A DNA stretch of 62,500 nt from Komagataeibacter sp. FNDCF1 (lineage in GTDB: Bacteria > Pseudomonadota > Alphaproteobacteria > Acetobacterales > Acetobacteraceae): NCBI RefSeq assembly GCF_021295335.1, contig NZ_JAIWOT010000001.1, forward strand, positions 1 to 62,500, given 5' to 3'. Under the pieces are notes generated by a model that was not told the DNA's origin, did not search any database, and saw only the letters and a list, made by a program, of their open reading frames with translations. A program made the position numbers and the translations under genes. Positions 50,402 through 62,409 of this stretch are shown one piece after another (within the stretch, counting starts at the first letter, position 1; every line of letters starts with the position of its first letter).

Positions 50402-50905
50402 TCATTCCACGCGCAGTGCCGTCTTTACCGCGCGGTCCAGTTGCGGCATTTCCGCCCGGCCCAGCCGTTCGGCGGCCTGCATGGCAAACTGCAGGGTAAG
50501 CCGCCGCCTGCGCGCGGGCGCCAGGGCCATGCGTGGCGGGTGGCGGATGATGGCGCAGTCCTGGCAGGTCGGCATGCCATCTGCCCCGTTGCCGGTCGCG
50601 GCAATGATCAGGCCGGTGGTATCGGGCAGCACGGCGTGGGGAAAATCCTGGTTGACCGCAAAATACATCTGGTCACACCACGGCAGGTAATCGGGCCATT
50701 TATGGTCGGCCCGGAAATCGGGCAGTCCGGACTTGATCTCGATGCAGATCAGATCACCTTTTGCGGTCAGCGCCATGATATCGGCACGCCTGCGGTCGGG
50801 CAGGGTGAATTCATGCAGGACCGCCCATCCATGCAGCCTGCATATCCGGCTTGCACCCGTGCGTATGGCCATCTGGATATGGGGGGCAGGCAGGGGGCAG
50901 GGCAT
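50402..50905 (-). CDS. mmcB: MmcB-family DNA repair protein
   Basis: 167 residues of the alphaproteobacterial MmcB (DUF6478-like) family, linked to DNA repair in Caulobacter. It has a PD-(D/E)xK nuclease-like core: RRADIMALTAKGDLICIEIKSG supplies D and the E-x-K pair. Downstream CDQMYFAVNQDFP is typical. The ATG at 50905 gives family length; the frame is open further upstream in the neighbouring gene. Its place behind the nucleotidyltransferase gene (19-base gap) looks accidental with respect to lipids. Confidence 0.8.
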   Translation of the reverse strand: MPCPLPAPHIQMAIRTGASRICRLHGWAVLHEFTLPDRRRADIMALTAKGDLICIEIKSGLPDFRADHKWPDYLPWCDQMYFAVNQDFPHAVLPDTTGLIIAATGNGADGMPTCQDCAIIRHPPRMALAPARRRRLTLQFAMQAAERLGRAEMPQLDRAVKTALRVE

Positions 50906-50924
50906 CGGGAGATGGCGAATCGGA

Positions 50925-51698
50925 TCAGGTGGCAGCGGCAGTGGAAAGCAGGTGGGTGACCAGTTCAAGATCGGCCGGCTTGTCCACGTCCACCGCTGCC
51001 CGGCCATCGGGTAGCGGGACCAGGGCCACGCGGGCGTGGGAAAGCTGGCCGATGCGGCGGCAGACATCCGCGCGCGTCAGGCGCCTGAAGACAAAGCGCA
51101 GCAGGATGCCGATACCCAGGATACGGGCCATTTTAAGCGGTTTCTTACGATCTGCCTCCAGCTTCTGCCACAGCCGGATCACCCCCCTGGCCGCGGGCGT
51201 GCGGAACAGGAACATGTTGCAGCCGGAAAATGCGCCATCGGCCAGCCGGATCATGGTGCGCTTCGTGCCCGGTACATCGCGCAGGATGGCCTGTTCCATG
51301 GCAATGCCCGCGGCGACATCGCACCCGCTTTCCTGCGCGGCCTGCACGAAGCGGCGCACCCAGCCCGGTTGCAGCAGGGCATGATCGGCGGTGGTGACCA
51401 GCAGTGGCGTGCCCAGCATGTCCAGCGCCTGCATCACGCTGGCGCTGGGACCGGCGGCCGGCGGGATGAAGGTCACGTCATCGGGTACGATGCCCGCCAG
51501 CACGTCCGGGCGCTCGATGCATATGGCGATCCTGCCGACTGTCTCCACCGACCGCAGCGCGGTGATGACCCGGCTGATCATGGGGGTGCCACAGACGGGC
51601 AGCAGCGCCTTGTGCGAAATGCCGGCGGCCTGCGCCATCGGGTCAACCCGGCCGGCCCTGCTCCCGGCCAGCACAAGGACATTCAGCCCTGTTTTCAT
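50925..51698 (-). CDS. MobA-like NTP transferase in the lipid locus
   Basis: 257 residues with a nucleotidyltransferase Rossmann fold: VLVLAGSRAGR near residues 8-18 in place of LAGGxGTR, HKALLPVCGTPMI, a TTADHALL metal-binding segment and the C-terminal VDVDKPADLEL. It resembles the small NTP transferases that make CDP- or UDP-activated headgroup donors. From memory, an NTP transferase gene is also required for ceramide phosphoglycerate in Caulobacter; this could be the counterpart. It overlaps the hydroxylase gene by 4 bases. Substrate unknown. Confidence 0.75.
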   Translation of the reverse strand: MKTGLNVLVLAGSRAGRVDPMAQAAGISHKALLPVCGTPMISRVITALRSVETVGRIAICIERPDVLAGIVPDDVTFIPPAAGPSASVMQALDMLGTPLLVTTADHALLQPGWVRRFVQAAQESGCDVAAGIAMEQAILRDVPGTKRTMIRLADGAFSGCNMFLFRTPAARGVIRLWQKLEADRKKPLKMARILGIGILLRFVFRRLTRADVCRRIGQLSHARVALVPLPDGRAAVDVDKPADLELVTHLLSTAAAT

Positions 51699-52477
51699 GC
51701 CGCGTTACGTGTCGTGTTGGCGCCATCGGGGCGGTCGCGCGGGGGGGAGCCGGTCTCCTCCATCACCCACGGATACTGCTGGGCTTCCTTCACGTCGTAA
51801 CCGAGGTTGAACACCGTCGGGCTGCGCGGGCAGCCGCGTGCGTCGCGGTAATAGCTGCGGAACAGGCGGTCGGCAACAAAGCTGGTGATGCCGTAATTGC
51901 CGTTTTCATTATGGAAATGATGCAGGACGTGACGCTGCTTCATGCGCTGGATCCAGCCCATGCGGGGCTTGTAGTTCAGGTGCTGGATGCAGTGGAAGAA
52001 TTCATAGATGCAGGTGATGGTCAGCCCGGCGCCGAAGGCGGCCCCCGCCGCCGACATGCCGCCAATCGCGTAACCAATGGGAATGGTCACGATGGCAATG
52101 GTGGGAATGGTGTTCAGCGGTGAGCCGAACAGCACGTCAAGCAGGTGGGGGTCCTGATGGTGGTCGAAATGGATCCGCTTCCACAGCGATGCGCTCCATT
52201 TCATGCGGTACAGGAAGCGCCCGTGAAGAATGAAGCGGTGGATGGCATACCATACCAGCGGGTAGACCAGGATGACCGCCGCGATGCTGATCACCACCGG
52301 GGTCACGGCGGTACAGGTGCATGCCATCACGGCAAAGCTGCCCAGTGCCAGCGCGAAATACAGCAGGATGGTGGGATAGGTCAGGTAGGCAATCCAGAGC
52401 TGGGACAGGTTCATCTTGCCCAGATCAAAGCTTCGGCCCGTGCGGATTGAACTGTTCTTCAGGGTATTGGTAATCAT
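51695..52477 (-). CDS. fatty-acid-2-hydroxylase-like membrane diiron enzyme
   Basis: 260 residues of the sterol desaturase/fatty acid hydroxylase superfamily with four membrane helices. Histidine boxes are H80..H85 (IHRFILH), H103..H107 (HFDHH), H162..H166 (HCIQH) and H183..H189 (HVLHHFH), followed by NYGITSFVADRLF. The last block is closest to FA2H/Scs7, which 2-hydroxylates ceramide acyl chains (there ..FGISTKLWD). Acetic acid bacteria are known to contain ceramides with 2-hydroxy acyl groups, so this is a natural candidate. It overlaps lptG and the NTP transferase gene by 4 bases on each side. A sphinganine C4-hydroxylase is the main alternative. Confidence 0.78.
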   Translation of the reverse strand: MITNTLKNSSIRTGRSFDLGKMNLSQLWIAYLTYPTILLYFALALGSFAVMACTCTAVTPVVISIAAVILVYPLVWYAIHRFILHGRFLYRMKWSASLWKRIHFDHHQDPHLLDVLFGSPLNTIPTIAIVTIPIGYAIGGMSAAGAAFGAGLTITCIYEFFHCIQHLNYKPRMGWIQRMKQRHVLHHFHNENGNYGITSFVADRLFRSYYRDARGCPRSPTVFNLGYDVKEAQQYPWVMEETGSPPRDRPDGANTTRNAA

Positions 52478-53583
52478 CGCTCTTCGATCCTCAGTAGCAC
52501 GGTGATGACGCCAAGGATGAAAATAAGGATCCCGACGAATATCGCCATAAGCGAGGGCAGCGTTCCCGCGTTTCCCAGTGCGCGCAGCAGCCCCTGGAAT
52601 ACGACAAACAGCAGGCCGGCGCCCAGGCACCATACCGGCAGCCAGCTGCGGATGCCAGCCCGTGGGGGGATATAGACCACAGGCACGGCCAGTAACAGCA
52701 TTACCGTAAAGGTCACGGGTAACATGATGCGTCCCAGTATTTCCGTAAGGAAAAAGGACGGGGACTGGCTGGAGGGCAGGCTGCCATTCTGTTCGGCCAG
52801 CATCGTGCCGGTGGACTGGGTGAAACTTATGGTCAGCTGCGTGATGTAGCCCGGCGTCATCGTGTCGGGCCAGTCAAGCCGCACGCTCTGGCCGGGGGGG
52901 GTGTCAAGCAGGTCGATACGGGTGGGATTGACAACGCTGAGCATGCGTGAGGGCGTACCGTACCAGCGCCCATGCACGTAGCGTACCGTGTCCAGCGTGG
53001 TGACCTTCTTCAGCAGGTCCTGGTGGTCCCGGTGATAGATGGTCACATCCCTGAGGAAACTGCCCCCGCCCGCAAGGTGGTGGATGCTGATCAGGTCATG
53101 GCCCGAGCGGATCCAGTAATTGTGCCATTCGGCAATCATGCCCGGCGTGGTCGCGTTCCACCACTGGGCCAGCGCCTGCTCGCTGCGCGGGGTGATCTGG
53201 TCATTCACAAAGCCGCACAATATGCCCAGCACGATGGTCGATGGCAGGAACAGCTTGATCAGTCCCGGCGTGGACAGGCCCGCCGCGCGCATGATCGCGA
53301 TCTCGTTGGACGTGGTCAGCTGCACCAGTGCCAGCAGGGCGCCAATCAGCACGGCAATCGGCATGGCGTTGCAGAACAGCAGCGGCAGGCGCATCACGGC
53401 GTAATACAGCACCCCGCTCATGCCCATGTGGCGGTGCATGATCTCCGTCACCTGCTCCAGCAGTGCCAGGATTTCCATGAGCGACACCACGATGATGGCG
53501 GTGGCGAACACCTTGCTCATCATCTCGCGCGTAAGATAGCCCAGCAGGACCGTGCCACTGGCCAGGCGCAGCCGCAGCTTCAT
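52474..53583 (-). CDS. lptG: LptG/LptF-type permease (second of the pair)
   Basis: 369 residues of the YjgP/YjgQ family: six membrane helices in a 3+3 arrangement around a periplasmic beta-jellyroll domain (about 140-275). MRLPLLFCNAMPIAVLIGALL and NEIAIMRAAGLS are family hallmarks. Normally LptF and LptG with LptB extract LPS from the inner membrane. Here the pair is translationally coupled (4-base overlaps) to lipid-modification genes, so it may instead export sphingolipid. The window does not show whether another LptFG pair exists elsewhere. Confidence 0.88.
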   Translation of the reverse strand: MKLRLRLASGTVLLGYLTREMMSKVFATAIIVVSLMEILALLEQVTEIMHRHMGMSGVLYYAVMRLPLLFCNAMPIAVLIGALLALVQLTTSNEIAIMRAAGLSTPGLIKLFLPSTIVLGILCGFVNDQITPRSEQALAQWWNATTPGMIAEWHNYWIRSGHDLISIHHLAGGGSFLRDVTIYHRDHQDLLKKVTTLDTVRYVHGRWYGTPSRMLSVVNPTRIDLLDTPPGQSVRLDWPDTMTPGYITQLTISFTQSTGTMLAEQNGSLPSSQSPSFFLTEILGRIMLPVTFTVMLLLAVPVVYIPPRAGIRSWLPVWCLGAGLLFVVFQGLLRALGNAGTLPSLMAIFVGILIFILGVITVLLRIEER

Positions 53584-54812
53584 GCCTGGTGTTCCATCAT
53601 GTGGCGGGGCAGGCCATCGGCGGAAAGCTGGCGCGGGGGCATGGCCGGCCCCCGTGTCAGCAGGATGCGCAGGCCGCCGGCCTGCCGGATCAGCGCGCCA
53701 ACGCAGATGAGGCTGAACACGAGGGTCGGCAGCCAGATCACCAGCAGCGGCGATATATGCATGTTGGCGACAAAACTCATGCCCATCTGCAGCGTATGGT
53801 CGAATCCGACCAGCGTTATGGCGGCAATGGCCAGGCCGGGGTTGTTTTTCTGCCGCTTGCGCACACCCGCCAGCGCGCAGGCCAGAATGGGGATGAAGGG
53901 AATGGCCGCCGTGCGCGCAAGACGGAAGTTCAGTTCGGCGATCATGTAAGAATGGCTGATGGCGGGATTGCCGTGCTTTATGCCGTAGTACAGTTCCGGC
54001 ACCGTCAGTTCGCGCTCGGTTTCACCCCGCGTGCGGTAGGCCTCGGTGTCCAGCTTGCTTTTTGACGTGATCATGCGCGTGGTCCGGCTGAAGCCGGTAA
54101 TGCTGGGCGCCTTGTCCAGGCTGTCGGTCACGATGGTGCCGTTGACCAGATCGAGGCGCACTTCCGAACCATCCGCCGGGTTGAAGATGTATCCCTTCTC
54201 CGCCGAGATGAAGCGGACATGCGCCTTGTCCGTCCCGTCACGGATGAAGACATTCCACATGCGCGAACCGGCATGGTCGACGTTTTCCGCCGTCAGCACG
54301 ATATCGTCCGATATGGCGAACATCTTGGACTGCAGATGGGGCGTCCAGCCTGCGTGGCTGGCAAAATAGAATGCCGAGCGGTAATCGTAGCGGGCATAGG
54401 GCTGTATGAACCCGTAAAGCGAAAAGGCCAGGAAGCCGAATACCGCACCCGTCACCACAAAGGGCTGGCAGATGCGGAAGATCGAGACCCCGCTTGCCAT
54501 CAGCGCATCGATCTCGTGGTTGGCGCTCATGCGGCGGATGACGGAAAACACGCTTACGCACATCGCCGCCGGCAGCGCCAGGCCAAGGTAATGGGGGATC
54601 AGGTCACTGAGCAGCGCGAAGAAGGTTTTCATCGAACTGCCATTGGCGGCCAGCAGGTTGAACAGGACCAGCAGCCGTTCCAGCAGCAGTGCCGCCATGA
54701 CAACGCCCAGCGCGATTGAAAACGGCGGCACGACCTGGCGCAGCAGGTAGCGGTCCATGGTGCCTGGAGCAGCCCTCTCCCATATCCGGTGCAGAAACGA
54801 CGTGCGGTTCAT
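53580..54812 (-). CDS. lptF: LptF-type permease (first of the pair)
   Basis: 410 residues, YjgP/YjgQ family, with six membrane helices and a periplasmic jellyroll (about 155-285). MDRYLLRQVVPPF near residue 19 is a typical LptF N terminus; the membrane half ends with SPLLVIWLP. It is preceded by the metallophosphoesterase gene (4-base overlap) and followed by lptG (4-base overlap). The ATPase partner LptB is not in the window. Confidence 0.9.
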   Translation of the reverse strand: MNRTSFLHRIWERAAPGTMDRYLLRQVVPPFSIALGVVMAALLLERLLVLFNLLAANGSSMKTFFALLSDLIPHYLGLALPAAMCVSVFSVIRRMSANHEIDALMASGVSIFRICQPFVVTGAVFGFLAFSLYGFIQPYARYDYRSAFYFASHAGWTPHLQSKMFAISDDIVLTAENVDHAGSRMWNVFIRDGTDKAHVRFISAEKGYIFNPADGSEVRLDLVNGTIVTDSLDKAPSITGFSRTTRMITSKSKLDTEAYRTRGETERELTVPELYYGIKHGNPAISHSYMIAELNFRLARTAAIPFIPILACALAGVRKRQKNNPGLAIAAITLVGFDHTLQMGMSFVANMHISPLLVIWLPTLVFSLICVGALIRQAGGLRILLTRGPAMPPRQLSADGLPRHMMEHQA

Positions 54813-55726
54813 GGGGGCGTGCTTATACCGGGAAAGGTGCGGGAAGATGGAAGCGGTTCAAAAATGGTTTCCTGACTGGTACCGGCCTGCGCATCATCAG
54901 GGAAGAAACGTCTTGTAACACCCAGTGCATAACCTGTCTCGCACGCGCTGACCGTAATACGATTCCACCCCGCCGCGCGCAGTGGATCACGCGACCGCGC
55001 CGAAGCCGAGGCTATCCCCAGTACCGGCACGGCCCCCCGTGGCCCCGGGAGGGAGGACACGGTAGAGGTATGGATATGCCCGTGCAGTACCATCTCCGCC
55101 CCTTCGCGCGCAATACAGGTGGCAAAATTATCCGGATCGGTAAGCGCCTTGCGGGTAATGGCAAGCCCGGGTACCGGCGGGTGATGGATCATGACGATCC
55201 GGCACAGCCCCTGGCGGCCGGTTTCGTGCAGCAGCGCGCGTAGCCTTGCCGCCTGCCGCGCGCCCATGGTGCCGGTGGCCCGGAACCAGGGTGTCGGCAC
55301 CGCCGAACTGACCCCGATCAGGGCGACAGGCCCCACACGGCGCACGAAGGGAAAGGGGAGGCGACCCATCCATGGCTGCCACAACCCGACGGTCCGCTGC
55401 CAGTTATCATGCACAAGGGTGTCATGATTGCCGGGTATGACTGTACATGGTGCGGGCATCTGTTCCAGCCAGCGCAGCGCGTTGCGGCATTCCCCCGGCA
55501 GGCCCATGTTGGTCAGGTCGCCCGTCAGCGCGATCATGCTGACATGACTGGCGGCAATATCCGCCATGACGCGGGCCAGAACCTCGGGGCGGTGCACGAA
55601 ACGGCGGTGCCGCCGCCATGACAGGTAGCTGAACATGCGCTTGTTAAGGCGTTCCGCAAGGCGGGGAGGCGTCATTTCCGTAGGGAGATGGGGGTCCGAC
55701 AGATGTGCAATGGTGATGGGATTCAC
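54809..55726 (-). CDS. calcineurin-like metallophosphoesterase
   Basis: 305 residues with all five metallophosphoesterase motifs: D11-x-H13 (LSDPHL), TGDLTN, GNHD, MIHHPP and GHIHT. There is no signal peptide, so it acts in the cytoplasm or at the inner face of the membrane. Start is GTG 55726 with AGAGG five bases upstream; upstream codons to 55807 are less likely. It leads unit A of the lipid locus and is divergent from the lipid kinase gene. LpxH-like phosphatases of this fold act on lipid A precursors, so a lipid phosphate or nucleotide-lipid substrate is plausible but unproven. Confidence 0.82.
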   Translation of the reverse strand: MNPITIAHLSDPHLPTEMTPPRLAERLNKRMFSYLSWRRHRRFVHRPEVLARVMADIAASHVSMIALTGDLTNMGLPGECRNALRWLEQMPAPCTVIPGNHDTLVHDNWQRTVGLWQPWMGRLPFPFVRRVGPVALIGVSSAVPTPWFRATGTMGARQAARLRALLHETGRQGLCRIVMIHHPPVPGLAITRKALTDPDNFATCIAREGAEMVLHGHIHTSTVSSLPGPRGAVPVLGIASASARSRDPLRAAGWNRITVSACETGYALGVTRRFFPDDAQAGTSQETIFEPLPSSRTFPGISTPP

Positions 55727-55873
55727 GCTCGCCTCTTTCCTTGCATCATGCCCGCGCGTATGGACACGGACATCTGTTGTGCCAGACCGCACGGGGGCGG
55801 ACGCCATCTTTTCGTGCCTTGCAATAGGAGGCAGATGGTTGCTTATGGCCTGTAAGTCAAATTTCAGACAGGG

Positions 55874-56866
55874 ATGGAATCATCAGTGACCGGATGTTTT
55901 GCGCTTGTTTATAACCCGCGCAGCCGGCGGAACATGGGCGATACGAGTGGATATGCTCAGGCCGCCCGTGACCTGCTGGGAAACAATTTCATTGATCCGG
56001 CTGACCGTTCCCGTCTGGATGCCCACATCGCGGCACTGGCCGCACGTGGCATGGACTGCATTGTCATTGACGGTGGCGATGGCACGGTCAGTGATGTGCT
56101 GAGCGCCATACACCGCCATTATGCGCCTGAACGCCTGCCAGCGGTTGCCGTGCTGCCTTCGGGTAATACCAATCTCATTGCAGGGGATGTCGGGTTTGGG
56201 CTGCGTGGTACCCCCGCACTGGAGCGGCTGCGGCAGCTTGCGGCAGCCGGCCGGTTGCGGCGCAGCGTGCGCAGGCGGTGCGGGCTGGTGGTGCAGTGGC
56301 CAGACAGCGAGAACCGGCTTCCTGTCGTTGGCATGTTTCACGGGGCGGCAGCCTTCACGCGTGGGATCGAGCTGGCCCACCAGCCAGCGATCCTGAACAA
56401 TTATTCGCATGAGATGGCGGTGATCGTTTCCTTCCTGTCATCCGTGGGCCGGCTGCTGACGCGCCGTTCCCGGCAGGAATGGATGCAGGGCGACCCGATG
56501 ACGGTTCTGGCAGGGGACAAGACACGGCTGGAAGGGAACTGCTTCCTGTTCCTTTCCACCACGCTCCAGCGTCTGCCCTATCGTATCTGGCCGTTCTGGA
56601 CAGCACGCGGCGTGCGTGACGCGCCCATCAATTTCCTGCATGTGGGGGGGCATCCCTCCCGTCTGGCGGCGGCGGCGTGGGCGCTGCTGCGCGGGCGGCA
56701 GCCAGCCTGGCTGCGGCAGGACCGTGACTATCACAGCGGGTGCGAGACGCGGATTGAAATGGCGCTGCAATCGGACTTCGTTCTGGATGGGGAGGTCTTC
56801 TCCCCCGGTGCATCAGGGCGGATCGTGCTCTCCGCCACGGCTCCCATCGACTTCATCCATGCCTGA
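55874..56866 (+). CDS. DAGK-catalytic-fold lipid kinase, candidate ceramide kinase
   Basis: 330 residues with the diacylglycerol/sphingosine kinase fold: NPRSRRN at 14-20, the nucleotide-binding GGDGT at 67-71 and PSGNTN at 95-100. The C-terminal half is beta-rich (..DFVLDGEVF is the family D-G-E). It phosphorylates a lipid hydroxyl with ATP. Next to serine palmitoyltransferase genes, ceramide is the likeliest substrate; a bacterial ceramide kinase of this fold is known from the Caulobacter sphingolipid locus (from memory). It is followed at 13 bases by the Tam41-like gene. Diacylglycerol remains an alternative substrate. Confidence 0.8.
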   Translation: MESSVTGCFALVYNPRSRRNMGDTSGYAQAARDLLGNNFIDPADRSRLDAHIAALAARGMDCIVIDGGDGTVSDVLSAIHRHYAPERLPAVAVLPSGNTNLIAGDVGFGLRGTPALERLRQLAAAGRLRRSVRRRCGLVVQWPDSENRLPVVGMFHGAAAFTRGIELAHQPAILNNYSHEMAVIVSFLSSVGRLLTRRSRQEWMQGDPMTVLAGDKTRLEGNCFLFLSTTLQRLPYRIWPFWTARGVRDAPINFLHVGGHPSRLAAAAWALLRGRQPAWLRQDRDYHSGCETRIEMALQSDFVLDGEVFSPGASGRIVLSATAPIDFIHA

Positions 56867-56879
56867 AGGAGCGATGACC

Positions 56880-57848
56880 ATGTCCCAGCCCGGCCCGACC
56901 GACCGTGTTGCCGCAGCAGGCCGGATCGCCCATCTGCTTGCCGATGAACTGGTCCAGCCGGTCGCGCCGTTCGTCACGGCATTCGTCACGCGGCTTGTCG
57001 GCCGGGCGCGGCCTCTGGGTGTGATCTTCTACGGTTCGGTCCTGCGCGCGCCAGATCCCGATGGCATCCTGGATTTCTACGTGATTGTCGAACATCTGGA
57101 AGACTGGGCATCGGGCCATCTGGCGCGTGAAGCCAACCGGATCCTGCCGCCCAATGTCGAATATCACGAAATTCCGGTGGAAGGCCGTATCATCCATGCC
57201 AAGGTTGCGATCCTGTCCATGGCGCAGTTCCGGCGCATGACAGGGCGCGCGACGCTTGATACCACGGTCTGGGCGCGTTTCTGCCAGCCCGTACGGCTGG
57301 TATGGGTGCGCGGGCCGGAAGCGGCGGATGCCATTCTGGCCTGTATCATCCGTGCGGTCGCGCAGGCGGGCCGCTGGGCTGCCGCACTGGGGCCGGAATC
57401 CGGCACGGCGGATGATTTCTGGCTGGCCCTGTTCGCCCACACCTATGGCGCGGAACTGCGCGTGGAGAACGGACGCAGGCCCAGGACCCTGCTTGACGGG
57501 CGTGAACAGCGCTACAGGGACCTGCTGCCCGACATCTGGCTTGCCGATGGCCTGCCCTTCGGTCGCAACGGGGCCGTGCTGTCACCCCGCCTTACGCCCC
57601 GCCTGCGGCACACCATGCGCGAAGGCTGGTGGCTGCGCGGGCGGCTGGGGCGCGTGCTGAATGTGAGCAGGCTGGTCAAGGGCGCATTCACGTTTGAAGG
57701 GGGCGCGCGCTATATCGCCTGGAAAATACAGCGCCATTCCGGCATTGAACTGCCTTTGGGGCCATTTTCCGAACGACACCCGCTGATCTGCCTGCCGTAT
57801 CTCCTGTGGAAGCTGCGGCAGGCAGGATTCTTCAGGCGGCGCGGCTGA
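56880..57848 (+). CDS. Tam41-like CTP:lipid-phosphate cytidylyltransferase
   Basis: 322 residues. It matches the mitochondrial CDP-DAG synthase Tam41 by pattern: FYGSV at 50-54, LDFYVIVEHLEDW at 64-76 (Tam41 has ..DFVFAVDDPVAW), a central GRIIHAKVAILS, DDFWLALFAHTYGAELR at 178-194 and the signature KGAFTFEGGARYIAWK at 267-282 (Tam41 KGI.TAG..KS..Y...K). It would transfer CMP from CTP to a lipid phosphate. AAGGAG eight bases before ATG 56880 sets the start. It is coupled to the lipid kinase upstream, and its 3' end overlaps convergent SPT by 17 bases. Recognition is by eye and needs a profile search. Confidence 0.68.
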   Translation: MSQPGPTDRVAAAGRIAHLLADELVQPVAPFVTAFVTRLVGRARPLGVIFYGSVLRAPDPDGILDFYVIVEHLEDWASGHLAREANRILPPNVEYHEIPVEGRIIHAKVAILSMAQFRRMTGRATLDTTVWARFCQPVRLVWVRGPEAADAILACIIRAVAQAGRWAAALGPESGTADDFWLALFAHTYGAELRVENGRRPRTLLDGREQRYRDLLPDIWLADGLPFGRNGAVLSPRLTPRLRHTMREGWWLRGRLGRVLNVSRLVKGAFTFEGGARYIAWKIQRHSGIELPLGPFSERHPLICLPYLLWKLRQAGFFRRRG

Positions 57849-59034
57849 TCCCCATCTCATTCGCGACGGTGGCGAATATTTCCACCGCCCTGTCGACCTG
57901 CTCCGGTGTATGCGTTGCCATGACGGAGGTACGCAGCAGGGGATGCTGGTCAGGCGTTGCGGGCGGCAGGCTGAGATTGACATAAACCCCAAGGTCAAGC
58001 AGCCGGTTCCAGAATGCCACCGCCATGGGAACTTCATCCAGAATGACGGAGACAACCGGGCTGGCCTGCGGTCCGGTGCGCAGGCCGGCGGCCTGAAGGC
58101 CCGCATGCAGTCTGCGTGCGTTGTCCATCAGGCGCACGCGCAGTTCCGGGTGTTTCTCCAGTTCATCCAGCGCCGCCATGGTCGCGGCAATCACTTCCGG
58201 CGGCAGGGAGGCGGTGAACATGTAGGGACGCGAACACAGGCGGATCAGGTCCAGCCCCGCATGGTTGGACACACAGTAGCCGCCAACGGTGCCAAGGCTC
58301 TTGGAAAAGGTGCCGACCACAAAGTCCACATCATCTTCCACGCCATCGGCTTCCGCCACGCCACGGCCATACTCGCCCATCACGCCCACCGAATGGGCTT
58401 CATCGGCCAGCAGCCAGGCCCCGGTCTCGCGCTTGACGGCAGCGAATTCCGCCATGGGCACCACATCGCCCATCATGGAATAGATGCCTTCCACGACCAC
58501 CAGCTTCGCCCCCGGCGTGCCGTCCAGGCGGCGCAGGCGCTTGTGCAGGTCATCGGCGTCATTATGGCGGAAACGGATGACTTGCGCATGGCCAAGACGG
58601 CTGCCATCATAGATGCTGGCATGGCTGTCCGCATCAAGCAGAAGATAGTCATCCTTGCCCGCCAGCGCCGAAATCGTGCCGAGATTGGCCTGGTAGCCAG
58701 TGGAAAACACCATGCAGTGCTGACGGCGGAAGAACGCGCACAGCCGTTCCTCCAACTGCCGGTGCAGTCCCTGCGTGCCATTGGCGATGCGCGAACCCGT
58801 GGTGCCCACGCCATAGGCCCTGGCTGCCTGCACCGCGGCATCGATTGCCGCCGGGGACTGGCTCAGGCCAAGATAGTTGTTGGTGCCGAACAGCAGCGTC
58901 TCGCGCCCTTCGATCACCCCGACCGTGGATGAGACCGGTTTTTCGATCACCACGTTGAAGGGGTTGCGCCCGCCGCCAGCGGTCACGCTTGCCAGAGCGG
59001 TGGCCAGGCCTTCGTATTTGGAGAAAATTGACAT
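57832..59034 (-). CDS. spt: serine palmitoyltransferase (alpha-oxoamine synthase family)
   Basis: 400 residues, PLP-dependent fold-I alpha-oxoamine synthase. It condenses serine with palmitoyl-CoA or -ACP to give 3-ketosphinganine. PLP-binding features: GYQAN near 113-117, His138 stacking on the ring, D211 in DEAHS and the Schiff-base Lys245 in GTFSKSLG. Length is normal. KBL, BioF and ALAS are close relatives; the adjacent ACP and acyl-AMP ligase, and the lipid kinase nearby, make SPT the best call. The ACP gene ends seven bases before it. There is no membrane segment, as in other bacterial SPTs. Confidence 0.86.
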   Translation of the reverse strand: MSIFSKYEGLATALASVTAGGGRNPFNVVIEKPVSSTVGVIEGRETLLFGTNNYLGLSQSPAAIDAAVQAARAYGVGTTGSRIANGTQGLHRQLEERLCAFFRRQHCMVFSTGYQANLGTISALAGKDDYLLLDADSHASIYDGSRLGHAQVIRFRHNDADDLHKRLRRLDGTPGAKLVVVEGIYSMMGDVVPMAEFAAVKRETGAWLLADEAHSVGVMGEYGRGVAEADGVEDDVDFVVGTFSKSLGTVGGYCVSNHAGLDLIRLCSRPYMFTASLPPEVIAATMAALDELEKHPELRVRLMDNARRLHAGLQAAGLRTGPQASPVVSVILDEVPMAVAFWNRLLDLGVYVNLSLPPATPDQHPLLRTSVMATHTPEQVDRAVEIFATVANEMGISRAA

Positions 59035-59040
59035 GATGCG

Positions 59041-59292
59041 TCAGGATGCCTGCTTGAGGGAGACGATGCAGGCAGCCAGATCATCAATGGTGCGGATATC
59101 AGCCAGCCGGTCAAGCGGCACGGAAACGTCGAGCGTATCCTCGATTTCCATGACAAAATTCATGACGGCCAGTGAATCAAAGGCCAGATCTTCCACGATC
59201 TTGCTGCTGCCATTGATATCACGGGGAACCTTGGGGTTCGCCAGCAGCGTCTTCACGATCAGCGCGGAGACACTCGCTACCGTTTCACTCAT
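59041..59292 (-). CDS. dedicated acyl carrier protein of the sphingolipid locus
   Basis: 83 residues; phosphopantetheine site Ser40 in LAFDSLAVMNF instead of the GADSL of the housekeeping ACP. It is acidic and helical as expected. It lies between the acyl-AMP ligase and SPT genes, 7 bases from SPT, which suggests that the ligase loads fatty acid on this ACP and SPT uses the acyl-ACP. The ATG at 59292 gives normal ACP length; in-frame codons upstream are less likely. Confidence 0.85.
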   Translation of the reverse strand: MSETVASVSALIVKTLLANPKVPRDINGSSKIVEDLAFDSLAVMNFVMEIEDTLDVSVPLDRLADIRTIDDLAACIVSLKQAS

Positions 59293-59353
59293 TCCTACAT
59301 CCTTATGGCATGTCCTGCCTGCCATGGGCAGGGGATCAGCATGAATGGCCTGC

Positions 59354-59397
59354 CCCCGGTCATCCAATGGACCGGGGCGGGGACTGTACATGTCCCC
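59354..59397. other. two tandem hairpins between acyl-AMP ligase and ACP genes
   Basis: CCCCGGTC (59354-59361) pairs with GACCGGGG (59370-59377), then GGGGAC (59379-59384) with GTCCCC (59392-59397), one base apart. No T tract follows on either strand, so a processing or stability element is more likely than a terminator. The whole gap (59293-59482) is otherwise featureless. Confidence 0.4.
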
Positions 59398-59482
59398 TGA
59401 TCGGAAGTCTTATGGGCGAAAAACAGGTTTTTGACCAGTCCTGCTTTGCGCGTGTGGCGCGCGGCCCGATGTTGCCGTGCTG

Positions 59483-61279
59483 TCAGACAACCGAAACGGA
59501 TGACGTTTCCAGCGGCTGGAAAGCACCTGAAAGCAGCATGGCCTTGGCCCGCGCCCGCGTCAGTTTGCCCGATGATGTCTGGGGCAGGGTATGGGGGGGG
59601 ACCAGAATGATGGACACATCCACCCCGTGCTGCCGCCGGAACAGGTTCGCGGCCTCGGTCTTCAGCGTTTCCCGTGCTTCGGGGGAAGAGGCGCGGCACT
59701 GAACAAGGGCCACGATCTTTTCGCCTTCGTTCTCATCGACCGAGAATACGGCCACGTCCCGGCTGCGCAGGGTGCTGATTTCCGTTTCGGCGGACCATTC
59801 CAGGTCCTGCGGCCAGATATTGCGGCCGTTAATGATGATCAGGTCCTTGGCGCGCCCGGTCACGACAACCTGCCCGTCCAGCATGTAACCCAGATCCCCG
59901 GTATTGAGCCAGCCATCCGCATCCACCACGCGAGCGGTTTCCTGCGGGCGGCGGAAATAACCCTGCATCAGGCTTGGCCCCCGCACGAACACGGTGCCGA
60001 CTTTGCGGTCAGTCAGCACGCGGCCGTTGCTGTCGCGGACTTCAAGCTCGTGGCGGGGCAGCACTTCACCACAGATGACAAACGTGCGCAGTGCGCGTGC
60101 GGGGTCGTTGGAGGGAACCGCCTCGCCACGCGTTTCAAGGGTGCGCAGGTCGATCGTATCGGTACGGATGCCCGAGCCAAGCGGCGCGAAGCTTATGGCA
60201 AGGGTCGCCTCGGCCATGCCGTAGCTTGCGGTAAAGGCCCGGCTGTCAAAGCCGGCGGAGGCAAAGCGCTGTGCGAAATCTTCGAGGATATGATAGCGGA
60301 TCATGTCCCCGCCAATACCCGCGACCCGCCAGGACGAGAGATCCAGTTCGATCGATGTGGCGCGCCGGGCACACAGTTCGTAGCCAAAGGACGGGCTGTA
60401 CGAAATCGTGCCGCGGTTGCGGCTGATCAGGTCCAGCCATACATGGGGGCGCCGTGCGAATTCACGCGTGGGCAGCATGTCCACGCTCAGTTGGCACGTC
60501 ATGGGGGTCAGGAAGAACCCTACGAGTCCCATGTCATGATAGAGCGGCAGCCAGGAGACGCAGCGGTCTCCCGTCTCGCGTACTTTCAACCCGTTCAGGG
60601 CGATGGCATGGGCATTGGCCATGCCGGAGCGCTGCGTGACGGCGATGCCCATCGGGAACCGTGTGCTGCCGGAGGAGAACTGCAGGTAAGACAGGTCATC
60701 CGGCCGGACGGTGGGCAGGCTGTCAACGGTAACCGGTGTTTCAAGCAGCCGGGCGGGCGTGCCAGAGAATTTCAGCTCAAGCCCATCCGTGATTTCATCT
60801 GTCCAGCCGGCAATGATGTCGGCAATGACCACGGCGGACGCCGCGGCACCCGCGATCATGCCCCGCAACGTTGCGACATAGCCTTCACGCCCGCCAAAGG
60901 CCACGGGCAGGGGCAGGGGAGCCGGTACCAGGCCGGCATACTGGCAGCCGAAGAAGATACGGGCGAAATCACCATCACTTTCGGCCACGATCGCCACCCG
61001 GTCCCCGGGTTCAAGGCCAAGGGAGAGAAGGCGTCTGCCTGTCTCGATCGCCTGCTCGCGCAATGTGCTGTACGGCAGCGCCTCAAGCAGGACACCCTTG
61101 CCCGAGTATATGTTGAAACCGCTCTTGCCCTGGGCGGCATAATCCAGTGCTGCCGGGAACGTCGGAAAATTGCCGTAACGACGGGGCAGACCAGAATCGG
61201 AGGGGGTCGGGAGGCTTATCATTTCCGGTAATGTGACTTCCACAGACGTAACTTGAAACGGCGAATGGGCGGTGTTCAA
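59483..61279 (-). CDS. fatty acyl-AMP ligase (acyl-ACP synthetase type)
   Basis: A 598-residue ANL-superfamily adenylating enzyme. Motif A3 is FSSGSTRFPMG, where the usual Lys is not present; YGMAEAT, GWLNTGDLGY and the C-terminal SSGKLTRARAK with the catalytic Lys follow. The overall form is that of FAAL enzymes, which activate fatty acids and pass them to an ACP rather than to CoA. The neighbouring dedicated ACP fits this. Its start overlaps the glycerophosphotransferase-like gene by 4 bases. It probably supplies acyl-ACP for SPT and/or the N-acyl chain. Confidence 0.87.
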   Translation of the reverse strand: MNTAHSPFQVTSVEVTLPEMISLPTPSDSGLPRRYGNFPTFPAALDYAAQGKSGFNIYSGKGVLLEALPYSTLREQAIETGRRLLSLGLEPGDRVAIVAESDGDFARIFFGCQYAGLVPAPLPLPVAFGGREGYVATLRGMIAGAAASAVVIADIIAGWTDEITDGLELKFSGTPARLLETPVTVDSLPTVRPDDLSYLQFSSGSTRFPMGIAVTQRSGMANAHAIALNGLKVRETGDRCVSWLPLYHDMGLVGFFLTPMTCQLSVDMLPTREFARRPHVWLDLISRNRGTISYSPSFGYELCARRATSIELDLSSWRVAGIGGDMIRYHILEDFAQRFASAGFDSRAFTASYGMAEATLAISFAPLGSGIRTDTIDLRTLETRGEAVPSNDPARALRTFVICGEVLPRHELEVRDSNGRVLTDRKVGTVFVRGPSLMQGYFRRPQETARVVDADGWLNTGDLGYMLDGQVVVTGRAKDLIIINGRNIWPQDLEWSAETEISTLRSRDVAVFSVDENEGEKIVALVQCRASSPEARETLKTEAANLFRRQHGVDVSIILVPPHTLPQTSSGKLTRARAKAMLLSGAFQPLETSSVSVV

Positions 61280-62409
61280 CCAATTACCCTCAAAAAGTCA
61301 ATGATCGATTTCGCGCCTTTGGCTGCCGTATCCTGCGGTGCCGCAAACCCGAAGGTCTCCCATATATACTCTTTTTGTCGATCAAGGAAATTTGCATGCG
61401 TCAGGAAAGCACTGTCAAGGGCCATACCCAGGTTGTCCACGCCTTCCATTACTTCGCCCAGCGTCCAGCTCTGGTAATTGGGGTCCCCCTGCCAGTGCGT
61501 TCCGTGTGCGTTAAGGAACAGGCAGGGTCTGGGTTTTATAAGGAACTCACTGACCTGGCTGCTGACATCGCCAAGGTAGAGATCAGACCCCAGGGTATAG
61601 GTCATATCCACGCTTCTGTCGCTGCCCAGGTCAATGATCATGTGGGGCAGGTTGGTAAAAGATGCCAGCATTTTCATGCCTTTGGCGCGGTTGGTATCAA
61701 ACAGCCGGTAATGCGGGGCAAAGATCAGGTTGTACTGTGTCTGCCTGGCAAAATACGTCAGGATATCAATCCCGAACCGCGACCATGAGGAAAGGTTCTG
61801 GCTGAAATGCGGATTGTAAAGAATGGTCGGTCGGCCGTTTGAGAACAGTGGTGCGTTACTGGCATGTATCCGTCTAACCATGTCGAATTTCGCATATATG
61901 CCGGATGTATAACGTCCGTGACGCAAGGCGCCGCTTTGGAGCAGTCGCGCCTCGACCTTATGGCCGGCCATAAGGATATAGTCGAATTTGCAGGCATCCC
62001 GTGCAAATCCTATGGCCCTGTCCCCCGCACCATGACGGGTCCAGACAAGCCGCGGATGCCTGACGCCCAGCCTGCGCAGGAAGAGGGATGTACGCTCGGG
62101 AACCACGATGGCCTGAAATCTGTTGAAATAATTTCTGTTCAGAAAAAGCAGGGCGATCTTGCTTACAGGGGTGGGGCCATGGCGCTGGATATGGCGACGG
62201 AGCCAGTCCGGCATCTTCAGGATATCAAAAACAACACGTGCGTCAGGATAGAATTCCGACAGGCTCCGGATACGGGAATCGCGCTCGGCGGTCAGGCTTG
62301 CAATATGAATCGTCAGTTCGGGATAAAGTCGGGCCATTTCCAGCGCGATCGGTAGCGAATGGAATTCCTGATGCGGCTGGGCAAGGTAAGGGAACAGGAT
62401 ATGGGGCAC
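61276..62409 (-). CDS. CDP-glycerol glycerophosphotransferase-like protein
   Basis: 377 residues with a two-domain GT-B-like fold of the TagB/TagF (CDP-glycerol glycerophosphotransferase) type: ILYNPHFSQNLSSW, IFAPHYRLF and the donor-binding end DLYLGDVSSQVSEFLIKPRPC, then FLNAHGTHW. Such enzymes transfer glycerol phosphate from CDP-glycerol. It could add a glycerophosphate or phosphoglycerate group to ceramide; acceptor unknown. GTG at 62409 is the best visible start: upstream codons remain open to about 62494 without an ATG, and the RBS is poor. It heads unit C. Confidence 0.72.
   Translation of the reverse strand: MPHILFPYLAQPHQEFHSLPIALEMARLYPELTIHIASLTAERDSRIRSLSEFYPDARVVFDILKMPDWLRRHIQRHGPTPVSKIALLFLNRNYFNRFQAIVVPERTSLFLRRLGVRHPRLVWTRHGAGDRAIGFARDACKFDYILMAGHKVEARLLQSGALRHGRYTSGIYAKFDMVRRIHASNAPLFSNGRPTILYNPHFSQNLSSWSRFGIDILTYFARQTQYNLIFAPHYRLFDTNRAKGMKMLASFTNLPHMIIDLGSDRSVDMTYTLGSDLYLGDVSSQVSEFLIKPRPCLFLNAHGTHWQGDPNYQSWTLGEVMEGVDNLGMALDSAFLTHANFLDRQKEYIWETFGFAAPQDTAAKGAKSIIDFLRVIG

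Follow-up and report, generated by a model that had tools for sequence, protein, structure and literature searches.

Contig C1 of Komagataeibacter sp. FNDCF1 (genome of 3.74 Mb on five contigs) opens with a stretch of 62.5 kb (hereafter the window) that contains a compact gene cluster around serine palmitoyltransferase (SPT). With a probability of roughly three in four, this locus is the form that the alphaproteobacterial phosphosphingolipid cluster takes in acetic acid bacteria, with a short-chain dehydrogenase/reductase (SDR) in place of the reductase CerR and the permease LptF2/LptG2 for export. The whole locus probably builds a hydroxylated, phosphate-headed sphingolipid and moves the product towards the outer membrane. 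It is a variant of the known Caulobacter-type system, and the published parts list is mostly matched. New are the tests of LptF/LptG for tracking with SPT and for clade membership, as well as the reductase swap, whose genes lie outside the coordinates of the locus first noted. Among the matches listed from the open-licence PMC literature, none describes a substitution of CerR by an SDR in acetic acid bacteria or an LptF/LptG clade test. The initial annotation had described three packed units with SPT, an acyl carrier protein (ACP), an acyl-AMP ligase, a lipid kinase, a hydroxylase, a nucleoside triphosphate (NTP) transferase, a phosphoesterase and LptF/LptG, and all named genes are present as open reading frames within positions 50925-62409 (Table 1).

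The cluster is strongly conserved. We searched 200 Acetobacteraceae genomes for SPT; 63 pass the NF047599 cut-off, a 470-bit fragment in G126 adds one more, and the next score is 304. The SPT+ set thus comprises 64 genomes, including that of the window, and the SPT- set 136; 63 SPT loci were fetched and examined together with the window. Sorted by reductase, 44 SPT+ genomes are of the window's kind, counting the broken G126; another 19 have CerR, and G021 stands by itself. Of the 44 loci of the window's reductase type, 34 share one order and orientation of the complete core set of ten genes (NTP transferase, hydroxylase, LptG, LptF, phosphoesterase, kinase, Tam41-like gene, SPT, ACP and ligase), and the gathering of these genes is therefore more than chance. 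Units A and B (Table 1) thus track with SPT in the family, as the initial annotation had expected from a neighbourhood and co-occurrence comparison. Single genes are found near SPT at even higher numbers among the 44 loci: phosphoesterase 37, kinase and Tam41-like gene 39 each, ACP and ligase 43 each. The GT-B-fold transferase occurs in just 27 of them, with the G001 copy placed elsewhere in the cluster, and is for this reason regarded as optional. In the named acetic-acid-bacterial loci (Komagataeibacter, Novacetimonas, Gluconacetobacter, Nguyenibacter), the orders GT-B-ligase-ACP-SPT, Tam41-kinase and phosphoesterase-LptF-LptG-hydroxylase are kept in 30 out of 30, and the NTP transferase is present in 29, L237 being an 11-kb contig; a 31st locus, from an unrelated metagenome-assembled genome with 42% identity, was left out. 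Some loci speak against a fixed association. G117 (on a 12-kb contig), G054, G180, G131 and G066 have no part of units A or B near SPT, and G116 and G029 have no phosphoesterase, LptF or LptG at the SPT locus. The G001 stretch is devoid of NTP transferase, hydroxylase and ligase, and that of G009, which reaches a contig end, of the NTP transferase. The G126 locus is broken, without a visible ACP. In this 2.0-Mb genome, SPT, ceramide synthase (CerS), SDR and other cluster genes appear broken or fragmentary (L107, L204), which suggests a decaying sphingolipid pathway.

What lipid might such a cluster produce? The closest PDB match of the PF04116 protein is the yeast sphingolipid hydroxylase SCS7 (4zr1; a weak match, E 1.3e-4, 24.6 bits), and histidines 80, 85, 103, 106, 107, 162, 166, 183, 186 and 187 are invariant wherever aligned (59-61 of 61 cluster copies). 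PF04116 and the histidine clusters are common to the locus protein and yeast SCS7/FA2H, although the locus hydroxylase differs in its weak match and in having no second Pfam domain. The protein is likely the 2-hydroxylase of the amide-linked acyl chain, which agrees with the 2-hydroxylated product proposed initially. Family-wide co-occurrence of PF04116 is uninformative, as 194 of the 200 genomes match, so that we turned to local synteny and to the conservation of the histidines. PF04116 genes are also found in 14 of 20 class-level SPT loci, and the hydroxylase is thus not peculiar to acetic acid bacteria.

With regard to the headgroup, the diacylglycerol-kinase-type (DAGK-type) enzyme is by its family a likely ceramide kinase. 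The Tam41-like protein has no Pfam match, yet the top five PDB matches of its AlphaFold model (pLDDT 78, 16 sequences) are Tam41 chains (7ecd with E 1.6e-8; 6ig4, 6ig2), so that the label given to it at the outset can be kept; the protein likely activates or modifies ceramide 1-phosphate. The sole PDB relative of the NTP transferase at E 0.001 is TTHA0179 (2dpw, E 1.2e-21). Its gene adjoins that of CerS in L064-L066, L070, L147, L156 and L161, and by this place in other clusters it is CC_1153-like and probably activates the headgroup as nucleotide donor. The GT-B protein had been labelled as CDP-glycerol glycerophosphotransferase-like, an identity that has to be downgraded: it misses the PF04464 gathering score (12.6 versus 22.1 bits, E 0.065), and in a Foldseek comparison of its AlphaFold model (pLDDT 80.7, 17 sequences) a UDP-GlcNAc 2-epimerase comes first, the top rows include GT4 enzymes, and TagF in complex with CDP-glycerol (3l7l) follows at rank 15 (E 3.5e-9). 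From its modelled fold, the protein is a possible headgroup transferase. A search near SPT found neither a CpgA-like (PF01066) gene nor a LicC-like cytidylyltransferase gene in any of the 44 loci; from the descriptions in the papers, we infer that the PF01066 cluster represents CpgA and the LicC-like cluster possibly CpgD. A headgroup of the CPG2 type (CPG, ceramide phosphoglycerate) should therefore not be assumed. The anionic headgroup initially proposed stands insofar as headgroup genes of the Caulobacter phosphosphingolipid type are present. Rather than CPG2, we would expect just one small headgroup, for instance phosphoglycerate, or else another group; its identity is uncertain.

The final lipid could also be a neutral or sugar-headed hydroxyceramide, with the kinase and the Tam41-like protein serving another lipid. 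Acetic acid bacteria are known to contain free ceramides, the closest folds of the GT-B protein include sugar-nucleotide enzymes, and several other acetic-acid-bacterial loci have a GT4 glycosyltransferase and a GINT1_N-type protein beside the NTP transferase. We nevertheless regard this as rather unlikely, as kinase and Tam41-like gene stay near SPT in 39 of the 44 loci. Moreover, their Caulobacter counterparts are described as required for CPG (PMC11324152, PMC12275187).

Further observations were made in related clusters. The GINT1_N-type protein and the GT4 glycosyltransferase (clusters c16 and c13; e.g. L074:121-1275 and L054:1856-2941) occur in many acetic-acid-bacterial loci, not in the window, and may carry out a sugar decoration. 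L046, L048, L049, L060, L061, L110 and L213 are alternative clusters of sphingolipid type with myo-inositol-phosphate synthase (MIPS), NTP transferase and CDP-alcohol transferase (Pfam was run on L060 only), which suggests a possible ceramide phosphoinositol route. The phosphoesterase reading frame has a long N-terminal extension in three genera (L065; L066; L070, 677 aa; L072, 622 aa; L068, 630 aa); the extension in L066 has no Pfam match, and the reading frame may have been started too early. A protein family (c17; 17 loci, e.g. L057, L064-L066, L144-L146), which is DUF2141 in both members tested (L060, L146), recurs in clusters outside the acetic acid bacteria and is often placed between LptF2 and the phosphoesterase or kinase.

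As to export, the genome of the window holds two LptF/LptG pairs, that of the locus and another one at C1:1386069-1388269. In a PF03739 search of the 200 genomes, at least four LptF/LptG genes were detected in 63 of 64 SPT+ versus 2 of 136 SPT- genomes (Fisher p 1.7e-48, a value that ignores relatedness and is not meant as a probability). The two SPT- exceptions, G056 and G132, carry sphingolipid-type clusters (L200 and L110, respectively), the latter with hydroxylase, MIPS and LptF/LptG. Eight genera are mixed with respect to SPT, as read from the table of SPT scores, and in seven of them (g4, g37, g50, g54, g58, g63, g98) the LptF/LptG number changes with SPT; a 67%-complete SPT- member of g98 shows three genes. 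In the eighth genus, g57, the SPT- members are the mentioned exceptions G056 and G132.

The phylogeny (133 of the 178 LptF/LptG sequences found, with the acetic-acid-bacterial loci thinned to 14) places SPT-linked LptF in one clade (37 rows; support in the Shimodaira-Hasegawa-like approximate likelihood ratio test, SH-aLRT, 99) and SPT-linked LptG in another (38 rows, 96). Ordinary copies, labelled as such by their genomic place, form separate clades of 24 copies each (SH-aLRT 99 and 100), and a third clade is made up of five copies each from the inositol-type clusters (100 and 100). Five of the seven inositol-type clusters carry their own third-clade LptF/LptG. In 12 class-level alphaproteobacterial genomes there are exactly two LptF/LptG genes, both beside SPT and both in the SPT-linked clades. 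At this level NF047603 is no suitable yardstick for SPT, as only 3 of 289 score above its cut-off, and a natural gap in bits was used. The LptF/LptG pair of its own that had been ascribed to the locus is supported, and LptF2/LptG2 is by sequence the probable permease of a sphingolipid exporter. Export requires more than LptF/LptG.

It is conceivable that the pair exports another lipid or a variant of lipopolysaccharide (LPS), and that it stands in the locus for historical reasons. The PF03739 family is known from LPS export, a search with this domain counts genes and says nothing on substrates, and some genomes do not conform to a dedicated sphingolipid permease. G021 has SPT and just two LptF/LptG genes, both ordinary. 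Among 36 SPT-bearing class genomes outside the family, the numbers are mixed (two genes in 20, four in 11, three in one, five in one, none in two, one not listed), and in G264, a genome of 5.4 Mb in one contig with SPT, the PF03739 search matched no LptF/LptG. In the remaining eight two-gene class genomes, not both genes are placed in the tree; those of G459 are within 8 kb of SPT, and G471 has one SPT-linked LptG. On the other hand, the window's genes score below the curated NCBIfam cut-offs for LptF and LptG of the LPS exporter (TIGR04407, 174.6 versus 230; TIGR04408, 184.8 versus 240; a comparison that covers the locus pair alone). The tracking with SPT, the separate clades and the 12 genomes in which the SPT-linked pair stands alone make another substrate improbable, and in Sphingomonas, LPS is reported to be replaced by glycosphingolipid (PMC11087976).

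The initial annotation spoke of a near-complete route, which does not hold for the locus itself: neither CerR nor CerS is encoded at any of the 44 loci of the window's reductase type. In the window's genome, a CerS homologue and a likely reductase are found near C1:3.378 Mb. The CerS homologue (C1:3377262-3378419) is 36% identical to the L060 copy; its name derives from the position that such genes regularly take in SPT clusters. Divergently oriented from it, at a distance of 156 bases, is the gene of a classical SDR (265 aa; G000:C1:3378576-3379370). CerR, on the other hand, is represented by cluster c11, which is of the NAD-epimerase type (PF01370) and was called CerR by place and family; it is near SPT in 18 of 20 class loci and, within the fetched stretch, in 13 of 19 CerR-type family loci. 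The CerR search of the 200 genomes gave 22 genomes with at least 212 bits, followed by a gap down to 103 bits, and strong matches (at least 212 bits) occur in 19 of the 64 SPT+ genomes. The SDR scores at least 188 bits in 47 of the 200 genomes, with 146 as the next score. Two types of CerS can be told apart: type A, with at least 325 bits, in 47 genomes and the broken G126, and type B, with 207-272 bits, in 20 genomes that are without exception SPT+. Some other genomes have weaker matches, up to 182 bits. The 47 genomes with CerS type A are the same as the 47 with SDR. No SPT+ genome combines SDR and CerR at these thresholds, and of the 45 SPT+ genomes without CerR, 44 have the SDR, as a fragment in case of G126. 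The 45th, G021, has an SDR of 43-44% identity 3.4 kb from its SPT. The SDR adjoins CerS in 29 of 30 fetched loci.

Four SPT- genomes (G010, G056, G105, G132) also hold the SDR/CerS-A pair. In G056, which is without the usual SPT, a single stretch (L200) encodes NTP transferase, hydroxylase, LptG, LptF, phosphoesterase, kinase, Tam41-like protein, an alpha-oxoamine synthase that is 34% like SPT, the SDR, and a divergent CerS type A; ACP or ligase matches were not detected in this stretch. The SDR lies between alpha-oxoamine synthase and CerS in L198, L199 and L200, and in G010 and G105 synthase, SDR and CerS are together, with the rest of the cluster not nearby. The identical CerS-A and SDR sets, the mutual exclusion of SDR and CerR in SPT+ genomes, and the one-cluster locus of G056 together make the SDR the likely 3-ketosphinganine reductase in place of CerR. 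Its cofactor and catalytic residues are kept, as TGxxxGxG (G19, G23, G25), N121, S149, Y162 and K166 are invariant in the 33 copies obtained from 34 loci searched, with up to two gapped rows allowed, and the N-terminus, read by eye, has no evident signal peptide. As an aside, the alpha-oxoamine synthases L200:8138-9346 (G056), L198:6938-8167 (G010) and L199:3-1166 (G105) are 34-35% like SPT, adjoin SDR and CerS with neither ACP nor ligase close by, and possibly represent a different serine palmitoyltransferase. Yet another alpha-oxoamine synthase is found beside a distant CerS-like acyltransferase (34-36%) in L205-L208 (G016, G162, G088, G075), i.e. in genomes without the usual SPT.

Several points count against the SDR as substitute of CerR. 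It is unlinked to SPT in the window's genome, as the CerS/SDR pair is 3.3 Mb away from the locus along C1, or about 0.2 Mb if C1 is circular; SDR and CerS are on separate contigs in G123; the G021 SDR, with 127 bits, does not surpass the SDRs of SPT- genomes, which reach 146 bits, and counts by place alone; and strong CerR matches also occur in three SPT- genomes (G059, G075, G198). In an SPT tree of 83 rows, from which G126 was omitted, the reductase label switches at least three times (acetic-acid-bacterial clade, G001, G021), but these are one event covering 42 rows plus two single genomes, and the tree is silent on which reductase state came first. That the locus belongs to an ordinary Caulobacter CPG/CPG2 pathway, with a weak NDUFA9-like epimerase elsewhere in the genome acting as CerR and the SDR having another job, could be argued from the two weak CerR matches in the window's genome (67.6 and 38.5 bits), from the published figure that assigns CerR ('epi', GOX1849) to Gluconobacter oxydans (PMC9386255), and from kinase, Tam41-like protein, phosphoesterase, LptF/G and NTP transferase, which match the Caulobacter set, but appears improbable given that weak CerR-like matches (E 0.001) exist in all 200 genomes, SPT+ or not, with the strong ones set apart by the 103-212 bit gap, that ten SPT+ genomes (e.g. 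G032, G046, G066, G116) have a best CerR match of E 7e-13 or weaker, that SDR and CerS-A sets coincide and the SDR accompanies synthase and CerS in L198-L200, and that CpgA- and LicC-like genes are missing near SPT in all 44 loci. An epimerase match at C1:3231870 was rejected as CerR, since weak matches are universal; by reading, its neighbours look LptC/LptA-type and glutamate-synthase-type. The other of the two matches is located at C1:2469023 (L167).

On the basis of the gene content, we infer the following route for the reading with SDR and LptF2/LptG2. The ligase would load a fatty acid onto ACP, and SPT would condense the ACP-bound acyl group with serine to 3-ketosphinganine. The distantly encoded SDR would then reduce 3-ketosphinganine and so stand in for the NDUFA9-like CerR, which is periplasmic in Caulobacter; CerS would acylate after the reduction, which corresponds to the eukaryotic order. 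The hydroxylase would hydroxylate the acyl chain and the kinase phosphorylate the ceramide, whereupon Tam41-fold protein, NTP transferase and phosphoesterase, in this genus possibly with the GT-B transferase, would install a small phosphate-linked polar headgroup. Finally, the LptF2/LptG2 permease would draw the completed lipid out of the inner membrane in the direction of the outer one, presumably with the help of LptB and further components of the Lpt system.

Beyond the locus, acetic acid bacteria may have dropped the periplasmic CerR route for a eukaryote-like order, in which an SDR, probably cytosolic, reduces 3-ketosphinganine before acylation. CerR and SDR would have been swapped at least three times in Acetobacteraceae, and an old LptF/LptG duplication would have given rise to a dedicated sphingolipid permease, which is the sole pair left in some Alphaproteobacteria, with a third clade for the inositol-type clusters. 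We regard this wider scenario as evenly balanced between right and wrong. If true, a lineage with an SDR in place of a periplasmic CerR is a natural test of reduce-first versus acylate-first synthesis, an order that is described as disputed for bacterial ceramides (PMC11087976). The passage of sphingolipids to the outer membrane has been called unknown (PMC11324152), and the question of the exporter can be tested directly with an LptF/LptG clade that follows the sphingolipid genes and is, in some genomes, the only one present. There is also a practical side. Vinegar, kombucha and bacterial cellulose are commonly produced with Komagataeibacter and its relatives, and an envelope lipid that possibly exists beside LPS is for this reason of interest.

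The genes and their arrangement are summarized in Table 1. Judged from gene spacing, units A, B and C appear to be transcription units. Unit A runs from phosphoesterase through LptF, LptG and hydroxylase to NTP transferase, with a 4-base overlap at each of the four junctions. In unit B, kinase and Tam41-like gene are separated by 7 bases, and the unit converges on SPT, with a 17-base overlap of the Tam41-like gene and SPT. Unit C has the order GT-B transferase, acyl-AMP ligase, ACP, SPT on the minus strand.

Table 1. Genes of the sphingolipid locus, with positions in the window
Gene product	Position	Strand	Evidence	Unit
NTP transferase, MobA-like (NTP_transf_3, PF12804)	50925-51698	-	67.5 bits	A
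PF04116 fatty-acid/ceramide hydroxylase	51695-52477	-	74 bits	A
LptG paralogue (LptG2)	52474-53583	-	PF03739 179 bits; SPT-linked LptG clade, SH-aLRT 96	A
LptF paralogue (LptF2)	53580-54812	-	PF03739 185 bits; SPT-linked LptF clade, SH-aLRT 99	A
Calcineurin-like metallophosphoesterase (CC_1158-like)	54809-55807 (alternative start 55726, 305 aa)	-	PF00149 44.5 bits	A
DAGK-type lipid kinase (CpgB/CC_1160-like)	55874-56866	+	PF00781 44.9 bits	B
Tam41-fold nucleotidyltransferase (CpgC/CC_1161-like)	56874-57848	+	predicted fold, without Pfam match	B
Serine palmitoyltransferase (SPT)	57832-59034	-	NF047599 equivalog, 639 bits (cut-off 500)	C
Dedicated acyl carrier protein (AcpR)	59041-59292	-	PF00550 39.9 bits	C
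Fatty acyl-AMP ligase, likely acyl-ACP synthetase (AasR)	59483-61279	-	NF006624 903 bits (cut-off 600)	C
GT-B-fold transferase, distantly TagF-like; possible headgroup transferase	61276-62409	-	PF04464 E 0.065 and predicted fold	C, optional

The SPT of the window shares 97% identity with the Komagataeibacter rhaeticus protein and 93-95% with the proteins of the other Komagataeibacter listed. Beyond the locus, a masked stretch is followed by 23S, 5S and tRNA-Met genes (L043), and this rRNA operon is probably the reason why many related contigs stop 3-5 kb past SPT. The locus had initially been started at 50402, which includes an MmcB-like gene (50402-50905). This gene is near SPT in 19 of 44 loci of the same type and an inositol-monophosphatase-like gene located beyond it in 26 of 44, both in 0 of 19 CerR-type loci, and many of the fetched stretches behind these counts end at contig ends. 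Both are probably neighbours rather than parts of the system.

The closest known system is the CPG/CPG2 region CC_1168-CC_1152 of Caulobacter crescentus. Eleven genes for CPG2 have been described there, and LptC2, LptF2 and LptG2 were proposed for transport, which was untested in that study (PMC11324152). Ceramide kinase activity is known for Caulobacter CpgB, and CpgD makes CDP-glycerate (PMC12275187). SPT, AcpR, AasR, ceramide-kinase-like and Tam41-like proteins, phosphoesterase, LptF2/LptG2 and NTP transferase are common to both systems, with AasR, AcpR and Spt adjacent and kinase and Tam41-like gene alongside. The kinase is matched with CC_1160, the Tam41-fold protein with CC_1161, the NTP transferase with CC_1153 and the phosphoesterase with CC_1158, in each case through family, fold or place only. 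With most parts, including LptF2/LptG2, already published (PMC11324152), the locus is less novel than the initial annotation suggested, but a difference does remain: it has neither the CerR of the spt operon nor the CerS of the Caulobacter region, nor the PF01066 (CpgA-like) and LicC-like genes near SPT, and it has an added GT-B transferase. In Caulobacter, hydroxylation is reported for the DesA-type gene CC_0202, whereas the window has a PF04116 hydroxylase instead; this contrast may not be real, as PF04116 genes are widespread in class SPT loci and the genome of Caulobacter vibrioides, included as a control, also has a match at some place. PMC11087976 locates the Caulobacter CerR in the periplasm, with an action presumed to follow acylation, and states that core sphingolipid enzymes are found in all sphingolipid-making bacteria. 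For Cloacimonadota, it has been raised as a possibility that non-homologous proteins take the place of bCerS and CerR (PMC11334938).

Gluconobacter oxydans 621H, with the sphingolipid genes GOX2056-2058, 'epi' GOX1849 and 'aca' GOX2417 (PMC9386255), resembles the window's genome in that aasR-acpR-spt are together and the acyltransferase (aca) is distant. In contrast to its epimerase-type 'epi', known here from its published assignment alone, the sampled acetic-acid-bacterial genomes have no strong CerR and have the SDR beside CerS. For such an SDR there is a counterpart in Bacteroides thetaiotaomicron, BT_0972, a 3-ketosphinganine reductase with homologs reported in Bacteroides, Prevotella, Bdellovibrio and Myxococcus (PMC9278070). 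Likened by description only, BT_0972 and the window SDR are of the same family and have in common the GxxxGxG and S-Y-K motifs and the proposed substrate 3-ketosphinganine. The LPS transporter LptB2FG, finally, likewise uses PF03739 permeases encoded as an adjacent pair, and the SPT-linked copies to which LptF2/LptG2 belong form clades apart from these ordinary pairs.

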